Source: Symbiodinium sp. CCMP2592 | Lineage: Eukaryota; Sar; Dinophyceae; Suessiales; Symbiodiniaceae | DNA: 64,000 bases | Direction: 5' to 3' | Assembly: GCA_905221615.1 (NCBI GenBank) | Contig: CAJNDT010000007.1 | Coordinates: 124,001-188,000 of the forward strand | In this document: positions 8,812 through 18,300 of the stretch, piece by piece | Position numbering within the stretch: the first letter of the stretch is position 1 | How the letters are laid out: each line of letters begins with the position of its first letter | The notes under the pieces: model-generated | Told to the model about the DNA's origin: nothing | Databases searched by the model: none | What the model saw: only the letters and a program-made list of their open reading frames with translations | Program-made: the position numbers and the translations under genes

Positions 8812-8950
8812 AAATGTGAGTGTGTGTGTGTGCATATACATATGATATACATATACATGTATCTACATATACATATACACATATATGTACCGTATGCATA
8901 TACTTTTTTACATGTTTAAACTAACTGCTTCATGCATGCATACATACATG
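8812..8950. repeat. TG/TA/TACA microsatellite bordering the DIRS-like element
   Basis: Runs of GTGTGTG, then ATACAT and CATGCATACATACATG. Similar CATACATATACACACAC sequence resumes at about 18106, on the other side of the DIRS-like element. The element therefore appears to sit inside a simple-sequence tract. Confidence 0.85.
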
Positions 8951-8988
8951 TCTCCTAATTATCGGTCTGGTGGGTAGGAATTAGGAGA
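8951..8988. repeat. Perfect 10-bp inverted repeat at left end of DIRS-like element
   Basis: TCTCCTAATT (8951-8960) and AATTAGGAGA (8979-8988) are perfect reverse complements with an 18-nt loop. It lies exactly where microsatellite sequence gives way to the GATC-rich sequence of the element, so it could be part of its terminus. No equally good partner was found at the right end. Confidence 0.7.
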
Positions 8989-9028
8989 TCAGTTTCGCGA
9001 TCGTTGGAACAGACTTGATCTATCTTCT

Positions 9029-9049
9029 CCGTGGCCATTTTGGCGATAG
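9029..9049 (+). other. Diverged spliced-leader relic in DIRS-like leader
   Basis: CCGTGGCCATTTTGGCGATAG matches the SL at 17 of 21 positions by eye, with an unbroken GCCATTTTGGC core. It lies 68 bp before the first ORF on the coding strand. This suggests the element's RNA was once trans-spliced and retrocopied, but the four mismatches make a chance match or functional mimicry possible. Confidence 0.5.
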
Positions 9050-9116
9050 CCGATCGGGCCATACCGAAAAATTCGGCGTGGGAGGTGGAAGTGAATAGGC
9101 TCGCTCGATTGCAGCC

Positions 9117-10925
9117 ATGTCGTTCCCTCCCGCTGGCTTCCATCAAGGTCGGCAGATGGCGGCTCCGATGGCCCCACAGTTCGGGTTGCCTCGCCGGCTT
9201 GGTCACCCTGAGAATCCGGGTAACTGGGGACACTACGTTCCAGGCGAGGCAGAGGCTCCCGAGAATCCCGCGGCTCCAGCTGCCGCATCCGGCGATTGGG
9301 GCTCTGGAGGCTGGGGTCGCGACGATCGTCGTGGACGTCGTGACCGTGGGGCTCCTGCTGCCCACAACCCCTTCGCTGTTCAGCGGCCTGAGTTCGTTCG
9401 CCAGCTCGTGGTCGAGGAAGAGGACGAGACCCAGAACTCGCTCCTCGTCATCGACAACCGCGATGACCGGGTGATCTCCCCGTTCCAGAACTGGCTGGCC
9501 GAGGAGATCATCTCGAATGCCGCCAGCTCGATCAATGTGCTGACGGAGCGGGACTCGGTCATGCCCCCGAACTCGGGCTACCACTGTTCGCTGTTCGCGA
9601 ACTATACGCTCGATGGCATCAAGGCCGTTCTGCTCTTTTCGATGTCTTCGAAAACAGGGGGACCATGTGCTCAGTGGGACTCCTACGCGAGTCGGGCGCT
9701 ATCGCACCCGGCTTTCCAGCCCTTCACTTGGCCGGTGATGTTCGATACCTCGGCCACCTATGTGGATGTGAAGGTCTTCAATGGAAACGAGGTCCTGTTC
9801 CATTGGGTCTTCAGGGGCTACCGCTCGGACTCGGATCTTTCTGTCCAGCAGCAGTTCTGCGACGAGGTGTTGATCCGGTCAGCCAACGAAGGATGGTTCC
9901 GACCCTCGATCGTCATCTCGGTCTTCGTTGGATGGAAGGTCTCCGTGACCTCGTTCGAGGTTGGAGCCCGAGTCTACACGATCGGCCCGAGAGGAGCAGT
10001 GATGGCGAGCGACCATGCCATGAGCACTTGTGAGCTCAGGGTGACAGAACGCTCGTCCCGAGAAGGCTATGGGAACGACGCCGATCGTGTTGAGTTTCGG
10101 TTCCGGGACGCCAATAACCGGATCGATCTCAAGTGCGGGAGGACTTCGGTGCCTGGCACGTGGCTCACAGTCAGCCACATCTCGGGCCCCGCTCTGATCA
10201 GCACGATCCAGGCCTGTCGGACCCAGCGTGCTCGCGTGGAAGGTCCAGACCACATCCAGCAGTTCGCGCAGCTGTCTGCGGTGATCGCCCCCTGGTACCA
10301 CAGTGCGTTCGCCAACGAACAGGTGCAAGTGGGAACTGCGACAGACGAGTTCCCGATGGATCATGGGAACTTCCACGTACGGGCTAGATCTAAGCTCAGG
10401 GTCTGCCCACTGGTGTTCGTCCGGCAGGAGGCGCTCGCCCACCGGTCGCACGATGAGAACAACGCCGTTCGAGCTCGGAATGGCCCCCCAGCTCTCATGG
10501 AAGAGGCGGCTCGGCAGGCGGTTCAGCAGCTGGGCTCCTCGGTCACTTCGGCGATCACCAACATGCCCACCTCGGCTCAGCAGGTGTTCGACCAGAGGGT
10601 GAGCACTGTTCCGGTGCCGGAGGAGGGCCAGCTCGGCCAGGAGCAGATCGCCGAGGAGGTCGTCACCGATGCCCGCGATCGCATGAGGGCCGACATGCGA
10701 TTCTCGCGCACGTCGGCTGCGATCACGCCTCAGGTTTTCACCGACGTGCTCCAGCACCGTGAGCAGGCGGAGTACGAGCGGATCAGCACGGTCAGGGTGG
10801 AGGAGACGGGCCAAGAGATCACGGCTTCCCCCTCCACTACGACCACGGTGCCGAAGGCGTTCGCCCCGGCTTACCCGCCGGCCAGATCGTCAACGGGGCC
10901 CTACACGATGGACAATACGGAGTAG
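9117..10925 (+). CDS. DIRS-like element ORF1, unknown 602-aa protein
   Basis: Starts at ATG 9117. Residues 1-80 are Pro/Gly/Ala-rich and end in an Arg-rich patch (GRDDRRGRRDR). Residues about 85-390 form a folded-looking region alternating hydrophobic beta-like segments and charged loops. Residues about 430-602 are helix-prone and then Thr/Pro-rich. I see no methyltransferase motif (no DPPY or NPPY), no protease active-site motif and no zinc finger. As the first gene of the element it could be a structural or nucleic-acid-binding protein, but the family is unrecognised. It shares the GATC-rich composition of the other three ORFs, so it belongs to the element and is not captured flanking sequence. 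A 113-bp spacer separates it from the recombinase ORF. Confidence 0.8.
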   Translation: MSFPPAGFHQGRQMAAPMAPQFGLPRRLGHPENPGNWGHYVPGEAEAPENPAAPAAASGDWGSGGWGRDDRRGRRDRGAPAAHNPFAVQRPEFVRQLVVEEEDETQNSLLVIDNRDDRVISPFQNWLAEEIISNAASSINVLTERDSVMPPNSGYHCSLFANYTLDGIKAVLLFSMSSKTGGPCAQWDSYASRALSHPAFQPFTWPVMFDTSATYVDVKVFNGNEVLFHWVFRGYRSDSDLSVQQQFCDEVLIRSANEGWFRPSIVISVFVGWKVSVTSFEVGARVYTIGPRGAVMASDHAMSTCELRVTERSSREGYGNDADRVEFRFRDANNRIDLKCGRTSVPGTWLTVSHISGPALISTIQACRTQRARVEGPDHIQQFAQLSAVIAPWYHSAFANEQVQVGTATDEFPMDHGNFHVRARSKLRVCPLVFVRQEALAHRSHDENNAVRARNGPPALMEEAARQAVQQLGSSVTSAITNMPTSAQQVFDQRVSTVPVPEEGQLGQEQIAEEVVTDARDRMRADMRFSRTSAAITPQVFTDVLQHREQAEYERISTVRVEETGQEITASPSTTTTVPKAFAPAYPPARSSTGPYTMDNTE

Positions 10926-11038
10926 TTGTCGATCGAAGCCTAGGTGATGGTCGGTTTTTGTGCACGCTCCTAAGAGAGTGGTGCGCCGCGCGACCGAAGC
11001 CTCCTGGCGGATCAGCCGGGCTCTTCCGCGGAACAAAC

Positions 11039-13024
11039 ATGCCGAGCGATCCTCTCGGCGCGCTAGATCCCAGCGCATGTTCTGCCGGAAGTGAGATTGA
11101 TCAATACCTGTCTCAGGCACGGCGCTCGGTTACCATTAGCAGGCACGTGCGATCGTTCGTGCAGCTGTTCAGGCCCAGCATGGATAGGTCCGTTCGGAAG
11201 ATCCTATCCCTCCCCCTGTTCGGGGATGAATTTTGCCAATGGTTGGTGGATCTTCGGATGGCTCAGTTCGAGAAGCTCACGGCTGTTTCGGACGGGACGA
11301 TCGCTGAGTGTGTGCAAGCATTCATTGATCTTGTCCCTGCCCTCGAGGAACTCCACACGCCAGATCGGCGGAAGAACGAGGAGGAGCTCGGCAGGTGGGT
11401 TCCGTCGATCGAGCTGTTGTTTGTGCTGGTTCGTAGCACGGCAGCAGCGGGCTGGGCTGATCTGGCCACTGATCTGGGATTCGGCTTGGCTGAAGCTCCG
11501 GTCGTCTTCGGGCGATCGCCACTGAAGTCGAAGGGGACTGGCAAGGAGCCTCCTATGCCATTGCCGCTCGCCAAGAGGCCGCGGGCGATCGAGCCGAGGC
11601 CTGAAGATCCGCAGGCATCGCTCAAAACCCGTGAGCTCGGCGAGGCCCGAAAGTGGGGCATGAGGCTGAAAGCGATCGTGGAGAGGTGCGGCGAGCACGC
11701 CGCGATCGCGGGCAACCCGAAGCCGGGATCACCCCTGTCTCAAGATGAGATGAATGCATTGAGGTTGATCGTCTTCGAGAGTGGCGGTTTCCGCACTATC
11801 CAGCAGTGCGTTCGTCACTGGGAGAGGATTGAGACTTGGGCGAGGTCGCAGAACCTAGTGGTGATCCCGCTGACTACCGACGTGCTCGTCAAGTACCTCT
11901 TAGATCTCTCCGACCGAGGTTGCGGCCCCACCGTGATACCTTCGGTACGTGGGGCGGTCAAATGGATCTGCAAGCGGATCGGCTTGTCGTTGCCCGACCT
12001 CCTCGATCCCCGGATCATGGCCTTGCAGAAGAAGGTCTATGGCGATCGCGGGAAAGAGACGAGGGAAGCGGTTCCCATCCCTCTGATCTTGGTGGCGGCG
12101 CTCGAGCGGTTCGTGTGCGCTCGTTTTAAGTCGAGCCAATTCCCCATGGCGTTCTTCGCATGGTGGGTTCTCGTGATGATCTACTCGTCCCTCAGGTTCG
12201 ACGACGCGCTCCACGTCGTGCCCGAGGCGCTCGCCCTGAAGGACGAGGCTCTCTATGGGGTGGTTTGGCAGACTAAGGTCGAGCGACAAAAGAAGGGAAC
12301 GCGGTTCGCGGCGGCCAGAGTCTCCGTCTCCGGATCCGACTGGATGGAAGACGGATGGCACGCAGCTGCGTTCGAAATGGACGATCGCGACTACTTCATG
12401 AAAGAGCTCGAATCGGCTGAGCGATTCGCCGATCGGCCTGCCAGCTACCAACGGAGCATCCTGTGGCTGCGGTACGTGCTCACTACTGCAGCTTCGGACG
12501 ATCTGAAGCGCGGGCACATCTCGCCCGAGCGGCTCAAGGAGCTCCTGAAGATCGTGCCGGAGATCACCTGGCACTCCTGCCGGGTCACGCTGCTCTCGGC
12601 GGCGGTCCAGGCGCAGGAGCCCGATAAAGAGATCGGGCTCCAAGCGAACTGGAAGGATCCAAGCCAGCTGGTCCTGAAGTACGCTCGGAGCCGCAAAGAG
12701 ATCTCGATCGAGATGGTCAAGCGGCTCACGAAGAGGATAGCATCCGACTGGAAATCTCCACCGGAGTTCGAGGCCGACGATACCAATCTGGTCGACTTCG
12801 GTGATCTCGCTCTGACCTATGTCACCAAGGCTAGATCGGCTGCGGGGTCCTCAAGGGATCTGAGTCTTAAATATCATGCCATGTATATAGATGGTACGGG
12901 CACGGAGCGAACGCTCTGCGGCCGGTACGCGATCACCGAGTGCGAGGATCTCGGCGAGATTCCGCCGAGTACTCAGATGTGCTCGTTGTGTTCCGGTAAG
13001 ATCTTTACGTTTACGGAGCCGTGA
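11039..13024 (+). CDS. Tyrosine recombinase of DIRS-like element with C-terminal Cys cluster
   Basis: 661 aa from ATG 11039; the frame is open further upstream from a TTG at 10958, but the ATG is the natural start. The catalytic set is visible: R386 in SSLRFDDALHV, K413 in VVWQTKVER, H512 and R515 in WHSCRVTLLS, W538 in GLQANWKD and the nucleophile Y548 in LKYARSR. Spacing from HxxR to Tyr is 33 residues, normal for the family. The segment before it (about 200-330) has the helical look of a core-binding domain. The last 40 residues hold C627, C635, C648 and C651 (ending MCSLCSG), a possible zinc-binding tail. Expected role: joins the circular or linear cDNA to the target by strand exchange, replacing integrase. 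It lies upstream of the Gag-like and pol ORFs, unlike typical DIRS order. Confidence 0.88.
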   Translation: MPSDPLGALDPSACSAGSEIDQYLSQARRSVTISRHVRSFVQLFRPSMDRSVRKILSLPLFGDEFCQWLVDLRMAQFEKLTAVSDGTIAECVQAFIDLVPALEELHTPDRRKNEEELGRWVPSIELLFVLVRSTAAAGWADLATDLGFGLAEAPVVFGRSPLKSKGTGKEPPMPLPLAKRPRAIEPRPEDPQASLKTRELGEARKWGMRLKAIVERCGEHAAIAGNPKPGSPLSQDEMNALRLIVFESGGFRTIQQCVRHWERIETWARSQNLVVIPLTTDVLVKYLLDLSDRGCGPTVIPSVRGAVKWICKRIGLSLPDLLDPRIMALQKKVYGDRGKETREAVPIPLILVAALERFVCARFKSSQFPMAFFAWWVLVMIYSSLRFDDALHVVPEALALKDEALYGVVWQTKVERQKKGTRFAAARVSVSGSDWMEDGWHAAAFEMDDRDYFMKELESAERFADRPASYQRSILWLRYVLTTAASDDLKRGHISPERLKELLKIVPEITWHSCRVTLLSAAVQAQEPDKEIGLQANWKDPSQLVLKYARSRKEISIEMVKRLTKRIASDWKSPPEFEADDTNLVDFGDLALTYVTKARSAAGSSRDLSLKYHAMYIDGTGTERTLCGRYAITECEDLGEIPPSTQMCSLCSGKIFTFTEP

Positions 13025-13080
13025 ACACAGCTGTTCGCAGTCACGATGGCCACTCGAGCTGAGCCTCTCCCTGACCGTAG

Positions 13081-13093
13081 CTTTTCTTTTCAG
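13081..13093 (+). promoter_or_regulatory. Possible trans-splice acceptor between recombinase and Gag-like ORFs
   Basis: CTTTTCTTTTCAG is a polypyrimidine tract ending in AG, 18 bp before the ATG at 13112, in the 87-bp spacer between two ORFs. Dinoflagellate polycistronic transcripts are resolved by SL addition at such sites. This would give the third ORF its own capped mRNA. Inferred from sequence only. Confidence 0.4.
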
Positions 13094-13111
13094 ACAGCTC
13101 GTTAGGCAGCC

Positions 13112-14392
13112 ATGGTCGATCGCACCGCATACGCGAATGAGGCGGCGACCCCGAAGCTGAACCTGCGCCAGATCTTCGGGAGACAGGGGCTAGATCCGGC
13201 CCTCTGCAGGCTCTCGGCCGACAAAGGTCTCCTCACAGTCGAGATGTTCGCAATGCTGGGGCAGGATCTCACCTCGGCGAAGGCGACAATCCGTCGGCTG
13301 TGGCAAGATGACTTGGCCCAGCTCGGGGCTGATGCGGCAGCACAGGAGCTCTCCGTGATGTCCTTGGCAGCGGTGTGGCAAGCTGCTCAAGCGCTGCAAA
13401 CGCAATACGCCTCTCGGCGAGCTCGTATGGAGGAAGACCCGAACAAGATCCCGGAGCTCTCCCAAGAGGACCACGCGGAGTTTCGCGATCGCTTCGTGAG
13501 GGTTCACCCCGACGTCATCCTGATCGACGCCAAAGAGCCGCATAAGAAGTTCGTCGAACGGCTGTCCCGCGATTTCCTGATCCATGGGATAGTTCCATTC
13601 TACGAGCCGGCCGAGATCAGGACCCGCTCGGATGTTATAGTGGTCAAGTCTGGACTTTCTCGGAACGCCGAAGATCTCCTGTCCATCTCTAAGGCTGATC
13701 AACCCGAGCCGGTCACCGATGTCACGACTCTGTTCAACCGTCTGCATGCTTTCTTCATGGCGCTCGAATACCTCAACATTTGCGCGTTCTCACGCGCCGA
13801 AGGCCCGCTGAAGTACTTGCAGGAATTGGAGCAGTTCCGCTCGGAATGTCCCGGCTTGCCATTCCTCATGGCGGCGGACCGAGCTATCCGGAAGAAGATC
13901 TTTCGCCTGCTGTCTGAACAGAGGGCGACGTACATCTCGTTCTCGCAGGCCCTGGTCGAGGTGCTCACTAACCACAAATATTTGTGGAACGATGCTCGCA
14001 CTTCAGCGACTCTCTCGAAGATGGAACAGAACCGCCAGCAGCTCGCGAATAACCCTGATCAGGTCAAGGAGGATGAAGTTCCTCCTCCTCCCCACACCCC
14101 GTTCAAAAGGCCTCGGGGCGGAGGGAAGAAGAAGAAGCGACTGCAGACTCCTTCGAAGGACGATCCGCCGAAGAAGGTCGTTAAGGAAGATCCCAACAAG
14201 AAGCTCAAGCGGGACAATCGGATCCCAGAGAAGGAGTGGAAGCTCATCGCCGATGCGGCCAAGAAGGTGCAGGGCGCTCGCCGGTGCCACTACTTCAACT
14301 CCTCGCTCGGGTGCGTGTCCGGCGACAACTGTCGTTTCAAGCACCTGTGCATGGTCTGTGGGGAGCCGCATGCCATGATCAGCAACCACTGA
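13112..14392 (+). CDS. Gag-like protein with CCCH zinc finger
   Basis: 426 aa from ATG 13112. The N-terminal 300 residues are mainly helix-prone and lack enzyme motifs, consistent with a capsid/Gag-like role. Residues about 310-370 are Pro- then Lys-rich (GGGKKKKR and later NKKLKRD), probably nucleic-acid-binding. The C-terminus carries a C-x8-C-x5-C-x3-H finger starting RCHYFNSSLGC, followed directly by C-x2-C-x4-H (LCMVCGEPH). This paired Cys/His arrangement resembles the C-terminal fingers of Gag-like proteins in tyrosine-recombinase retroelements. The stop at 14390-14392 precedes the pol frame, and the two frames differ and do not overlap, so a simple programmed frameshift into pol is not possible. 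Confidence 0.8.
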   Translation: MVDRTAYANEAATPKLNLRQIFGRQGLDPALCRLSADKGLLTVEMFAMLGQDLTSAKATIRRLWQDDLAQLGADAAAQELSVMSLAAVWQAAQALQTQYASRRARMEEDPNKIPELSQEDHAEFRDRFVRVHPDVILIDAKEPHKKFVERLSRDFLIHGIVPFYEPAEIRTRSDVIVVKSGLSRNAEDLLSISKADQPEPVTDVTTLFNRLHAFFMALEYLNICAFSRAEGPLKYLQELEQFRSECPGLPFLMAADRAIRKKIFRLLSEQRATYISFSQALVEVLTNHKYLWNDARTSATLSKMEQNRQQLANNPDQVKEDEVPPPPHTPFKRPRGGGKKKKRLQTPSKDDPPKKVVKEDPNKKLKRDNRIPEKEWKLIADAAKKVQGARRCHYFNSSLGCVSGDNCRFKHLCMVCGEPHAMISNH

Positions 14393-14436
14393 TCGGTTCC
14401 CAGCGAATCTGATAGTGCTCCTCACCTTGCCTTACT

Positions 14437-17400
14437 TTGTCCGGCGCGCGTGGGGGCTGTGATCTGGAATCCCGCGCACAAGATCTCCTGAAAAAGCGAG
14501 CTCCGCTTCTGCGTGAGGAGATCCTCGACTTGGCTACAGAGCTCCCTGTTCAGGGTCAGCGTAAGGCTGCCGACGAACGAGGCGGGGCTTTCTTCGCGGG
14601 AGCCTATCGCCATGGAGGCATTACAAGACTGCGATCGTCCTGTCACTCATGGCCGTGGTCGATCAAGGCGATCACCACGTACATCGCTCAACAGGCTCCT
14701 GAGGCGCTCTTCACGTCGTTCGCCGTCCTCTACGATCAGGAGGCCGAACCTCACCGTGACTCGGGCAATGAGCCGATCCCGAACATTGTCTTCAAGCTCG
14801 GGTCGTTTGAAGGAGGCGGGCTCTGGATCGAAGACCCGCTCGGGCCCGATGTGAGAGAAATCGAGGGACGCTCCATCCCCGGTTTCCTCACCGACTTCGT
14901 CGACAATAAGATCCTCTTCAACGCTAAGGAAGCTCTGCACGCGACTCTGCCCTGGATCGGAACTCGGGTGGTCGTCGCCGTGTACTCGGTGCAGGGGGTC
15001 GATCGGATCCCTGCCGACGAGTTCGAACAACTCCTTCAGTTGGGCTTCAAGCCGGCGCCGGTGAACACAGGTGATCACGTGGATCAGTCCTGGCAAACTC
15101 TCACTTTTGCGCTCGAGACCCCGGACTCCGATAGGAAGCGGCCCCATGGCGCCCCGGTCAAAGCCGCGGAACATCGTCAACGATCGGCCGGCAAGAAGGC
15201 CGTCGCCGCGGGTTACCAGATGAAGAAGTCTGTCGTGGCTCCGCTGATCGGCACGGAGATGCACCCGGGTGAAGCGATCGCTTTCGCCTTGGAAGCTACG
15301 CACCCGTTCACAAAGGACGCGGATATCGACCCAGACCTCCTTGATGTTCTGGAGCAAATTGTTCGTGATCCTGCTCAAGTGCGCGATCGTCGAGCCTCTC
15401 TTCTGCAGCATTGGGAACGGCGAGCTCAAGATCTGCTCCCGTCCTCTGACTCCTTGCTCAAGCAGATACCAGATCGGCATTTGCGCCGTCTTCTTCGCGG
15501 CGGCCCAGACGATCGTCCACTGGAAATGGGTCAGTTTTTCCACGTCGCCCTTTGGCGGGAGCTCATGAATGAGGCCAAATGCAGTGACACTGACCTGGTA
15601 GATCAGATCATGGCGGGCATGCCGATCGTCGGCGATATTGCCTCCTCCCACCGATGGAAGCCCGATCGCAAACCTCATGCGGAGCATCTCTCGGTTGATG
15701 CCCTTCGCTCGAGGGCCTGGGAATTTCGATCGAAGGTGTTAGGCGCGATTCGGAAATCTCCGATCACCGAGCACTCTCCCAAGGTCTGGGAAGGGACCAT
15801 GGAAGATGTTCGAGAAGGGTCGGCGATCGGTCCCTTCTTCGACGAGGCCGAAGTCTCGGAGTTCGTCGGCGATGATCGTTGGATCCCTACTCAGCGCTTT
15901 GAAGTGGTTCAAAAGAACAAAGTCAGGGGAGTTGACAGTGCTACCTCAAATGGGATCAACATGGCGACGATCGTCACCGAGAAACTCGAACTCCCCTCGA
16001 CGGACGCGAACGTGGCGGTGATCAAGTGGCTGCGCTCGCGGCTGCCGAAGTCCCCGCTACGTGGTTGGGTCCTGGACGAGCGGCGAGCCTATCGGCAGGT
16101 GCCGATCTCTCCGGCCCATCGCAAGTGGAGTGTGGTCGCTCTGAAGGATCCGGCCACGGGAAAGGTGGCGTTCTTCGTGATGGTCGGCCACTCCTTCGGC
16201 TTGGTCTCGGCCGTCTATAACTACAACCGCCGCTCGGCTGCGATTACCGACATTCTAAGGCGCGTGTTCATCGTGGCCGGCTTCAACTTCTATGACGACA
16301 AGTACGGCTTCGAGCCGGAGGCCACGGCAGATAGTGCGTTCGCGCTGGCCGAGAAGGTCCATTGGTGGCTCGGGGCCCGGTTCGATCAGCAGAAGCTCCA
16401 GCTCTGCTCGGATCCCACGATCCTGGGCGTGACCTATGACCTCGATCAGTACTTGCTCAAGATCAAGAAGTCCAGGAAGCAGGAGCTCTTCGACGAGATC
16501 TCGTCGATCCTGGAACACGAAGAGATGTCTCCCGGCCAAGCCGGGAAGCTCAGAGGAAAGCTGATGTTCGGCGCTTCGCAGCTCTGGGGGAAGATCGGCC
16601 GAGCCTTCCTGAGATCTCTGTCGGAGAGGCAATACTCCCGGAAGACGGTCAGTACGAGCCTATCGCCTGCTCTCCTCTACTCCCTCTACAAGTGGCGGAC
16701 GCTCGTGATGCATGGGCCTCCGAGGCCTATCCCCAGTTCGGGGCCGCGGAAGTCCGACGTGGTGATTTTCACGGATGGATCGGCGCCGAGCTCGAACCCC
16801 AAGGATCCCTCTTCTGAGATGATTGGAGGAGTGATGTTCACTAGGGACGATCAGCCTAGGCAATTCGCCTCGGGGGTGTCACGGCAGATCATGTCGAGGT
16901 GGTTCCCCCGGAAAACCCAAATTTGCATGATCGAACTTTTGGCCGCGGTCGCTGCGATACAGACTTTCAGGGAAGAGATCCGTGGAAAGCTGGTCCTCCT
17001 CTTTATCGATTCCGAGCCTGTAGAGGCAGCTTTGATCAAAGGCTACTCTGCAAAAGAGGACGTCTGCGAGCTCGTAGGAATTTTCTGGGAGCTTGTTCTG
17101 GAGCTTAGGTGCTCTGTTTATATCGATCGGGTACCGACCGATTCGAACCCGGCGGATAATCCCTCTCGTGGTGATGTCGCTACAGGTCTGATGTGTCATT
17201 TCTGCCGAAAGACCCCCTGGGTCACGCCGCCGGCTCATCGTGATCGCGATCGTCACCAGCCGGCCGGCTACGATCACGGGGCAGATCCTCCCCTCAACTG
17301 GGATCAAGTGATGGGCCTGCCCTCTGTTCAGCGGCCGGTGCCCAAAGCGCCCCCGGCCAGAGCTCATCGAAACAGAGGCATGGATCAGCCGGTCTACTAT

Positions 17401-17871
17401 GTGGATCCCAAGGCTGGTCTGCCGCGCCAAGGCCGAGCGGCTCCGAAAGGGCGTTCTCCTTTGTTCGCCGAGCCTGCTCAGTACATAGTTCCAGGGCAGC
17501 CCCCTAGATCGCTCGACGCCGTGCCCGATGACGTTCGCATCAGCGGACCGGCTCACTATGTCATTCCGGGGCAGCCCCCGCGGCGGCTGGATCAGCTCCC
17601 GCCCGGTACGCAGCTCCCTCCCGGCACCGAGATCATGGTGCCTACGAGGAGCTCGAGTCCGCCGACCAAAGCGCCGCCGACTCCCGCCCAGATCGCGGCG
17701 TACCAGGCTTCTCGCGCTACTCCCGCTCGGACGAAAGCCAAAGCTACTCCTGATGCAGCTTTTCGTGCTGCCGAGCGGCAGTTGATCGACTTGCTCGGCG
17801 CGGCCCCCCTCGACGACGATCCGATCGAGGAGCCGTCGCCGGAGCCCGATGATCCGATCGAAGACTTTTAA
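14437..17871 (+). CDS. Pol: dioxygenase-like domain, reverse transcriptase, RNase H
   Basis: The frame is open from 14416 after a TAG; there is no ATG until residue 262, so 14437 (TTG, residue 1) is only a nominal start. Residues about 45-185 match the 2-oxoglutarate/Fe(II) oxygenase pattern: H106-R-D108, GGGLWIED (126-133), H168 in ALHAT and R177 in GTRVVVAVYS, i.e. HxD-(60)-H-(9)-R. RT motif A is WVLDERRAYRQVPI (D547), motif B HSFGLVSAVYNYNR, motif C FYDDKYG (D620, D621). RNase H has D780 (IFTDGS), E833, D858 (FIDSE) and D907 (NPADNPSRGD), the complete DEDD set. The 190-residue tail is Pro-rich with three imperfect repeats around YxVPGQPPRxLD. RT/RNase H would copy the element. The substrate of the oxygenase-like domain is unknown; nucleic acid or protein are both possible. 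Confidence 0.88.
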   Translation: MSGARGGCDLESRAQDLLKKRAPLLREEILDLATELPVQGQRKAADERGGAFFAGAYRHGGITRLRSSCHSWPWSIKAITTYIAQQAPEALFTSFAVLYDQEAEPHRDSGNEPIPNIVFKLGSFEGGGLWIEDPLGPDVREIEGRSIPGFLTDFVDNKILFNAKEALHATLPWIGTRVVVAVYSVQGVDRIPADEFEQLLQLGFKPAPVNTGDHVDQSWQTLTFALETPDSDRKRPHGAPVKAAEHRQRSAGKKAVAAGYQMKKSVVAPLIGTEMHPGEAIAFALEATHPFTKDADIDPDLLDVLEQIVRDPAQVRDRRASLLQHWERRAQDLLPSSDSLLKQIPDRHLRRLLRGGPDDRPLEMGQFFHVALWRELMNEAKCSDTDLVDQIMAGMPIVGDIASSHRWKPDRKPHAEHLSVDALRSRAWEFRSKVLGAIRKSPITEHSPKVWEGTMEDVREGSAIGPFFDEAEVSEFVGDDRWIPTQRFEVVQKNKVRGVDSATSNGINMATIVTEKLELPSTDANVAVIKWLRSRLPKSPLRGWVLDERRAYRQVPISPAHRKWSVVALKDPATGKVAFFVMVGHSFGLVSAVYNYNRRSAAITDILRRVFIVAGFNFYDDKYGFEPEATADSAFALAEKVHWWLGARFDQQKLQLCSDPTILGVTYDLDQYLLKIKKSRKQELFDEISSILEHEEMSPGQAGKLRGKLMFGASQLWGKIGRAFLRSLSERQYSRKTVSTSLSPALLYSLYKWRTLVMHGPPRPIPSSGPRKSDVVIFTDGSAPSSNPKDPSSEMIGGVMFTRDDQPRQFASGVSRQIMSRWFPRKTQICMIELLAAVAAIQTFREEIRGKLVLLFIDSEPVEAALIKGYSAKEDVCELVGIFWELVLELRCSVYIDRVPTDSNPADNPSRGDVATGLMCHFCRKTPWVTPPAHRDRDRHQPAGYDHGADPPLNWDQVMGLPSVQRPVPKAPPARAHRNRGMDQPVYYVDPKAGLPRQGRAAPKGRSPLFAEPAQYIVPGQPPRSLDAVPDDVRISGPAHYVIPGQPPRRLDQLPPGTQLPPGTEIMVPTRSSSPPTKAPPTPAQIAAYQASRATPARTKAKATPDAAFRAAERQLIDLLGAAPLDDDPIEEPSPEPDDPIEDF

Positions 17872-18105
17872 TTTTGTTCGCGGGGAATATCGCTTGTCTG
17901 ATGTGTCCGATCGGATGATGTTGCGGTCTGTGGCGAATGCCATGGCGCACCCCTCGGCGATCGGGGGTCCGATCGGACTTGTGAAGATCAAGTGAAATTT
18001 TGATGATCCGACTGTGGCCGACTCCCACGTTGCGGTCGCATGAAAAAGGTGCGATCGCCGATAGTCTGTTCAGTGAGGGCACCGAACGTCTGCGATCGTA
18101 GTAAC
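17872..18105 (+). other. 3' non-coding end of DIRS-like element
   Basis: This part keeps the GATCG-rich composition of the ORFs (for example TGCGATCGCCGATAG) and ends just before CATACATATACACAC. It contains AGTCTGTTC (about 18062), complementary to GAACAGACT in the left end, and CGATCG followed by AACTGA, similar in order to the reverse complement of the left end. Ends were not resolved precisely. Confidence 0.5.
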
Positions 18106-18300
18106 TGACATACATATACACACACACACAAATGCACACATGCATTCGTTCATGCATACACGTTCATACATACGTACAACACATGCACACATGCGTAATA
18201 TGTGTACGTACATACATACATGCATACATGCCTACCTACCTACTGACATCCCTACATACCTACATGCCTACCTACCTGCGTACATACGCACTGCATGCTC
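18106..18300. repeat. CA/CATA/CCTA microsatellite tract
   Basis: (CA)n, CATACATA and CCTACCTA blocks in sequence. It flanks the right side of the DIRS-like element and resembles the tract on its left, consistent with insertion into a pre-existing simple-sequence region. Confidence 0.85.

Follow-up and report, generated by a model that had tools for sequence, protein, structure and literature searches.

A putative TET/JBP-like dioxygenase domain fused upstream of the reverse transcriptase in DIRS-like retrotransposons of Symbiodinium

The analysis of a DIRS-like retrotransposon of Symbiodinium sp. CCMP2592 revealed that its pol frame begins with a domain carrying the motif set of 2-oxoglutarate (2OG)/Fe(II) dioxygenases. 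This N-terminal module seems to be the element's own TET/JBP-like base oxygenase, a reading we consider fairly probable, and its substrate is then probably 5-methylcytosine or thymine in DNA. As judged by sequence comparison, the fusion recurs across the same genome, both in a number of DIRS-like families and in polyproteins of the Copia-like kind. The sequence-only reading of this DNA had reported a 2OG/Fe(II)-type motif set fused upstream of the DIRS-like reverse transcriptase (RT) in one element; the fusion is indeed in-frame there and conserved across relatives, and its distribution proved wider than that reading had described.

Organisation of the element and state of the window copy

The window, i.e., the whole stretch of 64,000 nucleotides of Symbiodinium sp. 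CCMP2592 DNA that was analysed, contains a DIRS-like element on its plus strand (Table 1). The extent of the element, 8950–18107, was derived from loci L028 and L026, in which the sequence of 17883–18107 is joined directly to the sequence of 8950–9072. In L028, repeat B is joined exactly to repeat A and followed by approximately 250 nt and then by a block matching window positions 17191–18118; the order in L026 is the same. As regards the DIRS pattern A-coding-B-A-B, the B-A-B part was read in L028 and L026, and the outer A and outer B in the window. An ACAT-type simple repeat was observed on both flanks (8910–8949 and 18108–18150).

For ORF1, neither Pfam (searched up to E 10) nor NCBIfam gave a match. 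The next ORF (10958–13024), likewise without a Pfam match, contains R...HxxR...Y-like residues, which probably mark a tyrosine recombinase. The pol frame is open from 14416 to 17871, and its residues are counted from the TTG at 14437. In L026, L027 and L028, gag and pol lie in one frame with a single TGA between them, which suggests read-through. The coordinates of L018 indicate a 435-aa frame followed, after one stop, by pol.

The window copy is damaged and is not an intact element. It is about 650 bp shorter than L028, so the pol residues past approximately 920 represent run-on, and a 5-nt insertion is present at 14425, between gag and pol and beyond the TGA. A 946-aa frame occurs in many close copies elsewhere in the genome. 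The Pfam matches to RNase H and RVT_1 are weak and all below the cut-off, with E 0.075 for the RNase H-like match of the window pol. The RT and RNase H had earlier been called intact, which is fair for the frame, given these matches and the close relatives described below, and fails for the element, given the missing sequence and the insertion.

Table 1. Coordinates of the features of the DIRS-like element in the window and, in the last three rows, of two-domain frames in the named loci
Feature	Position	Strand	Basis
Whole DIRS-like element without internal repeat block	8950..18107	+	Inferred from L028 and L026
Left terminal repeat A	8950..9072	+	100% match to internal A copy of L028
ORF1, 602 aa	9117..10925	+	Open frame; no family match
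Probable tyrosine recombinase ORF	10958..13024	+	R...HxxR...Y-like residues by eye; similar frames in L025–L028
Gag-like ORF, CCCH-like knuckle near end	13112..14392	+	zf-CCCH_4 E 0.56, below cut-off; similar frames in L024–L028
Putative TET/JBP-like 2OG/Fe(II) dioxygenase domain, pol residues 1–218	14437..15090	+	Sequence comparison
HxDxxN motif codons (H106, D108, N111)	14752..14769	+	Invariant in A3
Second iron-ligand histidine H168	14938..14940	+	Invariant in A3; 13/17 protein relatives
R177, candidate 2OG-binding arginine	14965..14967	+	Invariant in A3; 18/20 in wider set
Linker, larger part common with methyltransferase-bearing relatives	15091..15879	+	Borders approximate; homology to most relatives from about pol residue 230
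Reverse transcriptase and RNase H	15880..17172	+	Borders approximate; Pfam, relatives
Deletion junction	17191..17196	+	About 650 bp of L028 missing, including internal B and A repeats
Right terminal repeat B	17883..18107	+	100% match to internal B copy of L028
Two-domain frame, L029	511-3999		
Two-domain frame, L030	1044-4001		
Two-domain frame, L037	152-1501		

Catalytic residues and selection on the N-terminal domain

Residues 1–218 of pol contain H106-x-D108-x-x-N111, a GGGLWIED strand, H168 and R177, and continue in frame into the linker, RT and RNase H. With the TTG at 14437 as residue 1, H106, D108, H168 and R177 are placed as the sequence-only reading had said, with GGGLWIED between them. 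The conservation of these positions was assessed in the alignment A3, which consists of the window domain and 11 domains of the same genome that were found via similarity to the window and are 24–84% identical; one of them comes from the Copia-like frame of L018. None of the 12 rows deviates at H106, D108, N111, H168 or R177.

The counts were lower among 25 protein relatives, five of them named as Symbiodinium. If only the rows aligned as far as the residue in question are considered and gaps are counted among them, H106 is kept in 19/23, D108 in 17/23, N111 in 19/23, H168 in 13/17 and R177 in 13/14. The misses fall in P0003, P0004, P0006, P0007, P0008, P0011, P0015, P0022 and P0024, and the H168 position is occupied by R in P0003 and P0004 and by M in P0015. 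Non-conservation of the H/D/H positions in homologues had been named beforehand as evidence against a dioxygenase; this outcome did not arise, as the positions are invariant in 12/12 rows of A3 and most protein relatives keep the residues. In a wider set of 20 rows, including five Copia-type rows, HxDxxN and the second H are present in 20/20 and the R in 18/20; the Copia-type rows were located by HxDxxN and are therefore no evidence for that motif. The equivalent of R177 is absent from two of these five rows. With regard to the double-stranded beta-helix (jelly-roll) fold, the AlphaFold2 prediction of the domain, based on 14 closely related rows, had a mean pLDDT of 37.

The domain is under purifying selection. 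Its dN/dS ranged between 0.05 and 0.21 in the nine of 14 pairs with dS ≥ 0.19 and between 0.07 and 0.42 in the other five pairs, which are very close. In the comparison of the window with L026, dN/dS was 0.097 for the domain, 0.092 for the linker and 0.031 for RT-RNase H; the domain is thus less constrained than RT-RNase H and similar to the linker. A chance occurrence of the motif was ruled out by the residue invariance in A3 together with purifying selection.

A catalytically dead module, structural or nucleic-acid-binding and retained for pol folding or packaging, would agree with the replacement of H168 in P0003, P0004 and P0015, with the missing R in the two Copia-type rows and with the weak and partial matches of the neighbouring methyltransferase-like domains in L014–L016, L018 and L019. 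However, a dead scaffold would not need the iron ligands, N and R that are invariant in the 12 A3 rows at 24–84% identity, and we consider this explanation improbable.

Distribution of the fusion and its methyltransferase-like partners

The searched genome comprises 1.098 Gb in 5383 contigs; all genome counts are lower bounds, and twenty regions were retrieved. The window domain gave at least 151 matches (150 of 5092 candidates scored), which include close copies, some copies of intermediate identity and a group that is 32–40% identical in part and lies in long frames. Likewise, the domain of L029 gave at least 150 matches (150 of 5111 candidates scored). Contigs that bear the names S. microadriaticum, S. 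necroappetens or Symbiodinium sp. KB8 also have the dioxygenase-RT fusion; outside the lineage, no relatives were found in viral contigs, GTDB genomes or phages. The number of genome matches, many of them close copies in the 946-aa frame, the fusion in these further contigs and the purifying selection on the domain leave very little probability that a host gene fragment was caught by chance in one copy and has no role in the element.

The search with the RT part yielded at least 242 relatives (8000 candidates scored), of which the best 120 are 54–90% identical in the RT/RNase H part. Among the 97 relatives with a usable N-terminus, 96 form one BLAST cluster, with P0108 outside, and the motifs G[T/S]PC and ENP are present in 87 and 95 of the 97, respectively. 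Only P0046 of the seven scanned relatives passed the DNA_methylase cut-off (E 2e-5), and the other six had no such match; these N-termini were labelled C5-methyltransferase-like on the basis of the P0046 match and the two motifs. The homology of the window pol to most RT relatives begins at residues 217–245 (at 175 for P0037 and 200 for P0117). The dioxygenase profile did not match the RT relatives (lowest E 3.8), nor did the methyltransferase profile match the window pol. By these comparisons, the nearest RT relatives carry a methyltransferase-like domain in place of the window dioxygenase.

Both domains occur together in seven loci (L020–L023, L029, L030 and L037), where the dioxygenase is followed in one frame by a C5-methyltransferase-like domain (E 1.2e-25 to 2.2e-36). 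The RT shares this frame in L020, L022 and L029 and lies in the following frame in L021 and L023. In L016, L018 and L019, the weak partial methyltransferase match is located between the dioxygenase and the RT; L014 and L015 show such a match in separate frames, and L009–L013 and L017 have no methyltransferase match. In L016, approximately pol residues 213–600 form a weakly matching, apparently decayed methyltransferase-like stretch in which the ENP motif was not seen; L018 and L019 also have a stretch of this type.

The RT tree was based on 66 rows: three of the dioxygenase type, 53 of the 115 other rows and 10 distant rows. The three window-type rows grouped together (support 100), next to those of the methyltransferase type. 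The branch leading to the distant rows, with about 5 changes per column, is too long to give the direction of the domain change. Because families with both domains exist, loss from a two-domain ancestor would be at least as simple as a swap.

Several loci chosen through Tet_JBP (Pfam PF12851) resemble Copia elements. L032 has an RVT_2 match (E 2.2e-18) in a frame of 3089 aa, and L033, with a frame of 2754 aa, matches the integrase core (E 6.7e-7) and GAG-pre-integrase (E 0.0014), both below the cut-off; L034 has a weak DDE match only (E 0.021) and L036 none. Copia-like frames with a TET-like domain were noted in L032, L033, L034, L035 and L036, the evidence outside L032 and L033 being weaker or a reading by eye. 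In the domain tree, the five Copia-type rows formed one group (100/99); the branches of this tree were long and gave no firm arrangement of the DIRS-type rows. On the minus strand of L018 (7287–9899), a second dioxygenase-like domain was seen by eye in a frame with an integrase-like stretch.

Affinity to TET/JBP oxygenases, proposed function and known systems

The TET/JBP oxygenases include JBP1/2 of trypanosomes, and TET/JBP genes are also carried by fungal DNA transposons. The curated cut-off of Tet_JBP is 34.9 bits. In the Pfam scan of set A2, Tet_JBP was matched by six of the 13 members (best E 0.061) and no other oxygenase family by any. L026 scored 12.1 bits over profile positions 65–162 of 164, and the L029 domain alone 29.3 bits. 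For domains chosen through Tet_JBP itself, E was 5.9e-7 for L029, 9.5e-6 for L037 and between 2.4e-5 and 3.3e-4 for five Copia-type domains. When searched against the whole genome, the profile had at least 148 matches at E ≤ 10, of which the best had E 2.2e-4 and many lie in long open frames; none reached the cut-off, the best scoring 29.6 as against 34.9 bits. Tet_JBP was not matched by the window pol even with E allowed up to 10; scanned by itself, the window domain matched no Pfam family at E up to 1. Tet_JBP was the only oxygenase family in the Pfam scans of the A2 members, L026, L029 and the Copia-type loci. Searches against NCBIfam and PHROGs gave nothing usable.

In the pairwise comparison of profiles, each of the six other groups, some of which consist of one to three rows, was linked with the window clade, the probability being 99.5 for L029/L030/L037, 99.4 for the Copia set and 97.5–99.9 for the four other groups. 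The mixed profile A5 (15 rows, eight of them picked through Tet_JBP hits) was compared with 177,635 PDB sequences, and its five best matches were TET2 (three constructs, E 0.035) and the fungal CcTet (two matches, E 0.32 and 0.34). In the alignment with TET2, HrDshN stands opposite HRDLHN, and a second stretch at LHATTP is insignificant. The asparagine in HxDxxN is a base-contacting residue of TET2. The L029 domain alone also had TET2 as its first PDB match (E 0.28). Profile A3, whose rows were not picked via Pfam, gave chance matches only and no TET chain, as did the window domain alone with chance matches only; A2, and L033 and L034 alone, gave no TET match.

Since the Tet_JBP scores are below the cut-off and A2, A3, L033 and L034 had no TET match, the domain was named TET/JBP-like and was not filed as a member of the family. 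At these sub-cut-off scores, the relationship points towards base oxygenases of the TET/JBP kind and away from a hydroxylase of chromatin proteins; the sequence-only reading had offered both nucleic acid and a chromatin protein as substrate. Alternatively, the domain could belong to a different branch of the 2OG/Fe(II) dioxygenases, being AlkB-like or prolyl-hydroxylase-like, and act on the element's RNA or on a protein, comparable to the ALKBH5-like enzyme of orchid Gypsy elements acting on m6A. The catalytic residues would suit any 2OG oxygenase, the link to TET is below the cut-off and absent for profile A3, and a functional AlkB-type domain has been published for a plant Gypsy element (PMC9289625). 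We nevertheless regard this alternative as rather unlikely: AlkB and prolyl-hydroxylase families were found for none of the domains scanned (E up to 10 or 1), the known oxygenase, where there is any, is TET/JBP, and in seven loci the C5-methyltransferase-like domain next to it suggests pyrimidine bases as the target.

Under the TET/JBP-like reading, the module would be made by read-through of one TGA in the copies with gag and pol in one frame and would travel with the RT. Its reaction may then be the hydroxylation of 5-methylcytosine and/or thymine at the pyrimidine 5-methyl group, either in newly copied DNA or at the target. 5-Methylcytosine fits as a substrate because, in sister families, a methyltransferase-like domain directly follows the dioxygenase and could write the 5-methylcytosine that the dioxygenase would oxidise. 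Thymine fits because 5-hydroxymethyluracil (5hmU) replaces 12–70% of thymine in the nuclear DNA of dinoflagellates (PMC6723414). The element would probably benefit by adding to its new copy, or removing from it, the base marks that let the host recognise repeats, and escape from silencing may be the role of the domain.

5hmU is in general ascribed to TET enzymes (PMC6723414) and is enriched on most repeats in Breviolum (PMC11071213). The consulted passages of both papers name no dinoflagellate enzyme for 5hmU; in a term search of PMC11071213, "dioxygenase" was absent and "hydroxylase" occurred once, in a cited trypanosome title, and JBP and dioxygenase were likewise not mentioned in the main texts of two reviews. 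It is conceivable, and in our view doubtful, that retrotransposon-borne TET/JBP-like oxygenases make the 5hmU of dinoflagellates, so that the elements would put this mark on their own DNA and, through their sheer number of copies, on the genome of the host, some families having a methyltransferase aboard. The TET/JBP-like domains are testable candidates for this enzyme and broaden the known cargo of retrotransposons. Moreover, elements that combine a DNA-oxygenase-like with a DNA methyltransferase-like domain in a single frame would write and edit base marks.

The sequence-only reading knew of no description of the fusion, and in agreement with this no publication was found among titles and abstract openings, a scope that covered few subscription papers and had preprints outside it; the same holds for TET/JBP-like domains in dinoflagellate retrotransposons. 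The priority of such a domain as new is uncertain.

The closest known system is SymbioDIRS-Dnmt3, the DIRS-like elements of Symbiodinium with a cytosine methyltransferase (de Mendoza et al. 2018, PMC5890265). Matched by the published description, the methyltransferase-bearing RT relatives are elements of this kind. The window element shares with them the A-coding-B-A-B repeats and the shuffled order of the ORFs, one of which is probably its tyrosine recombinase, and its pol, like theirs, includes a domain of a presumed base-modifying type (PMC5890265). Unlike them, the window lineage has no methyltransferase match and has an unrelated dioxygenase-like domain. The main text of PMC5890265 does not mention oxygenase, 2OG, AlkB, TET or JBP at word starts.

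The TET/JBP oxygenases (PF12851; TET2, CcTet) and the window-type domains have in common HxD...H...R, a HRDxHN-like motif, a sub-threshold profile match and the best PDB matches of A5, whereas the window domain is under the family cut-off, has about 220 aa and is part of a retrotransposon polyprotein. The orchid Gypsy elements, whose ALKBH5-like 2OG dioxygenase has RNA m6A demethylase activity in vitro (PMC9289625), are likewise retrotransposons carrying a 2OG/Fe(II) oxygenase, which in the present case is predicted from sequence. In orchids, it is an additional AlkB-type ORF in an LTR Gypsy element of plants (PMC9289625), while the window domain is fused to pol, appears nearer to TET/JBP and belongs to a protist, where its carriers are of the DIRS-like and Copia-like kinds.
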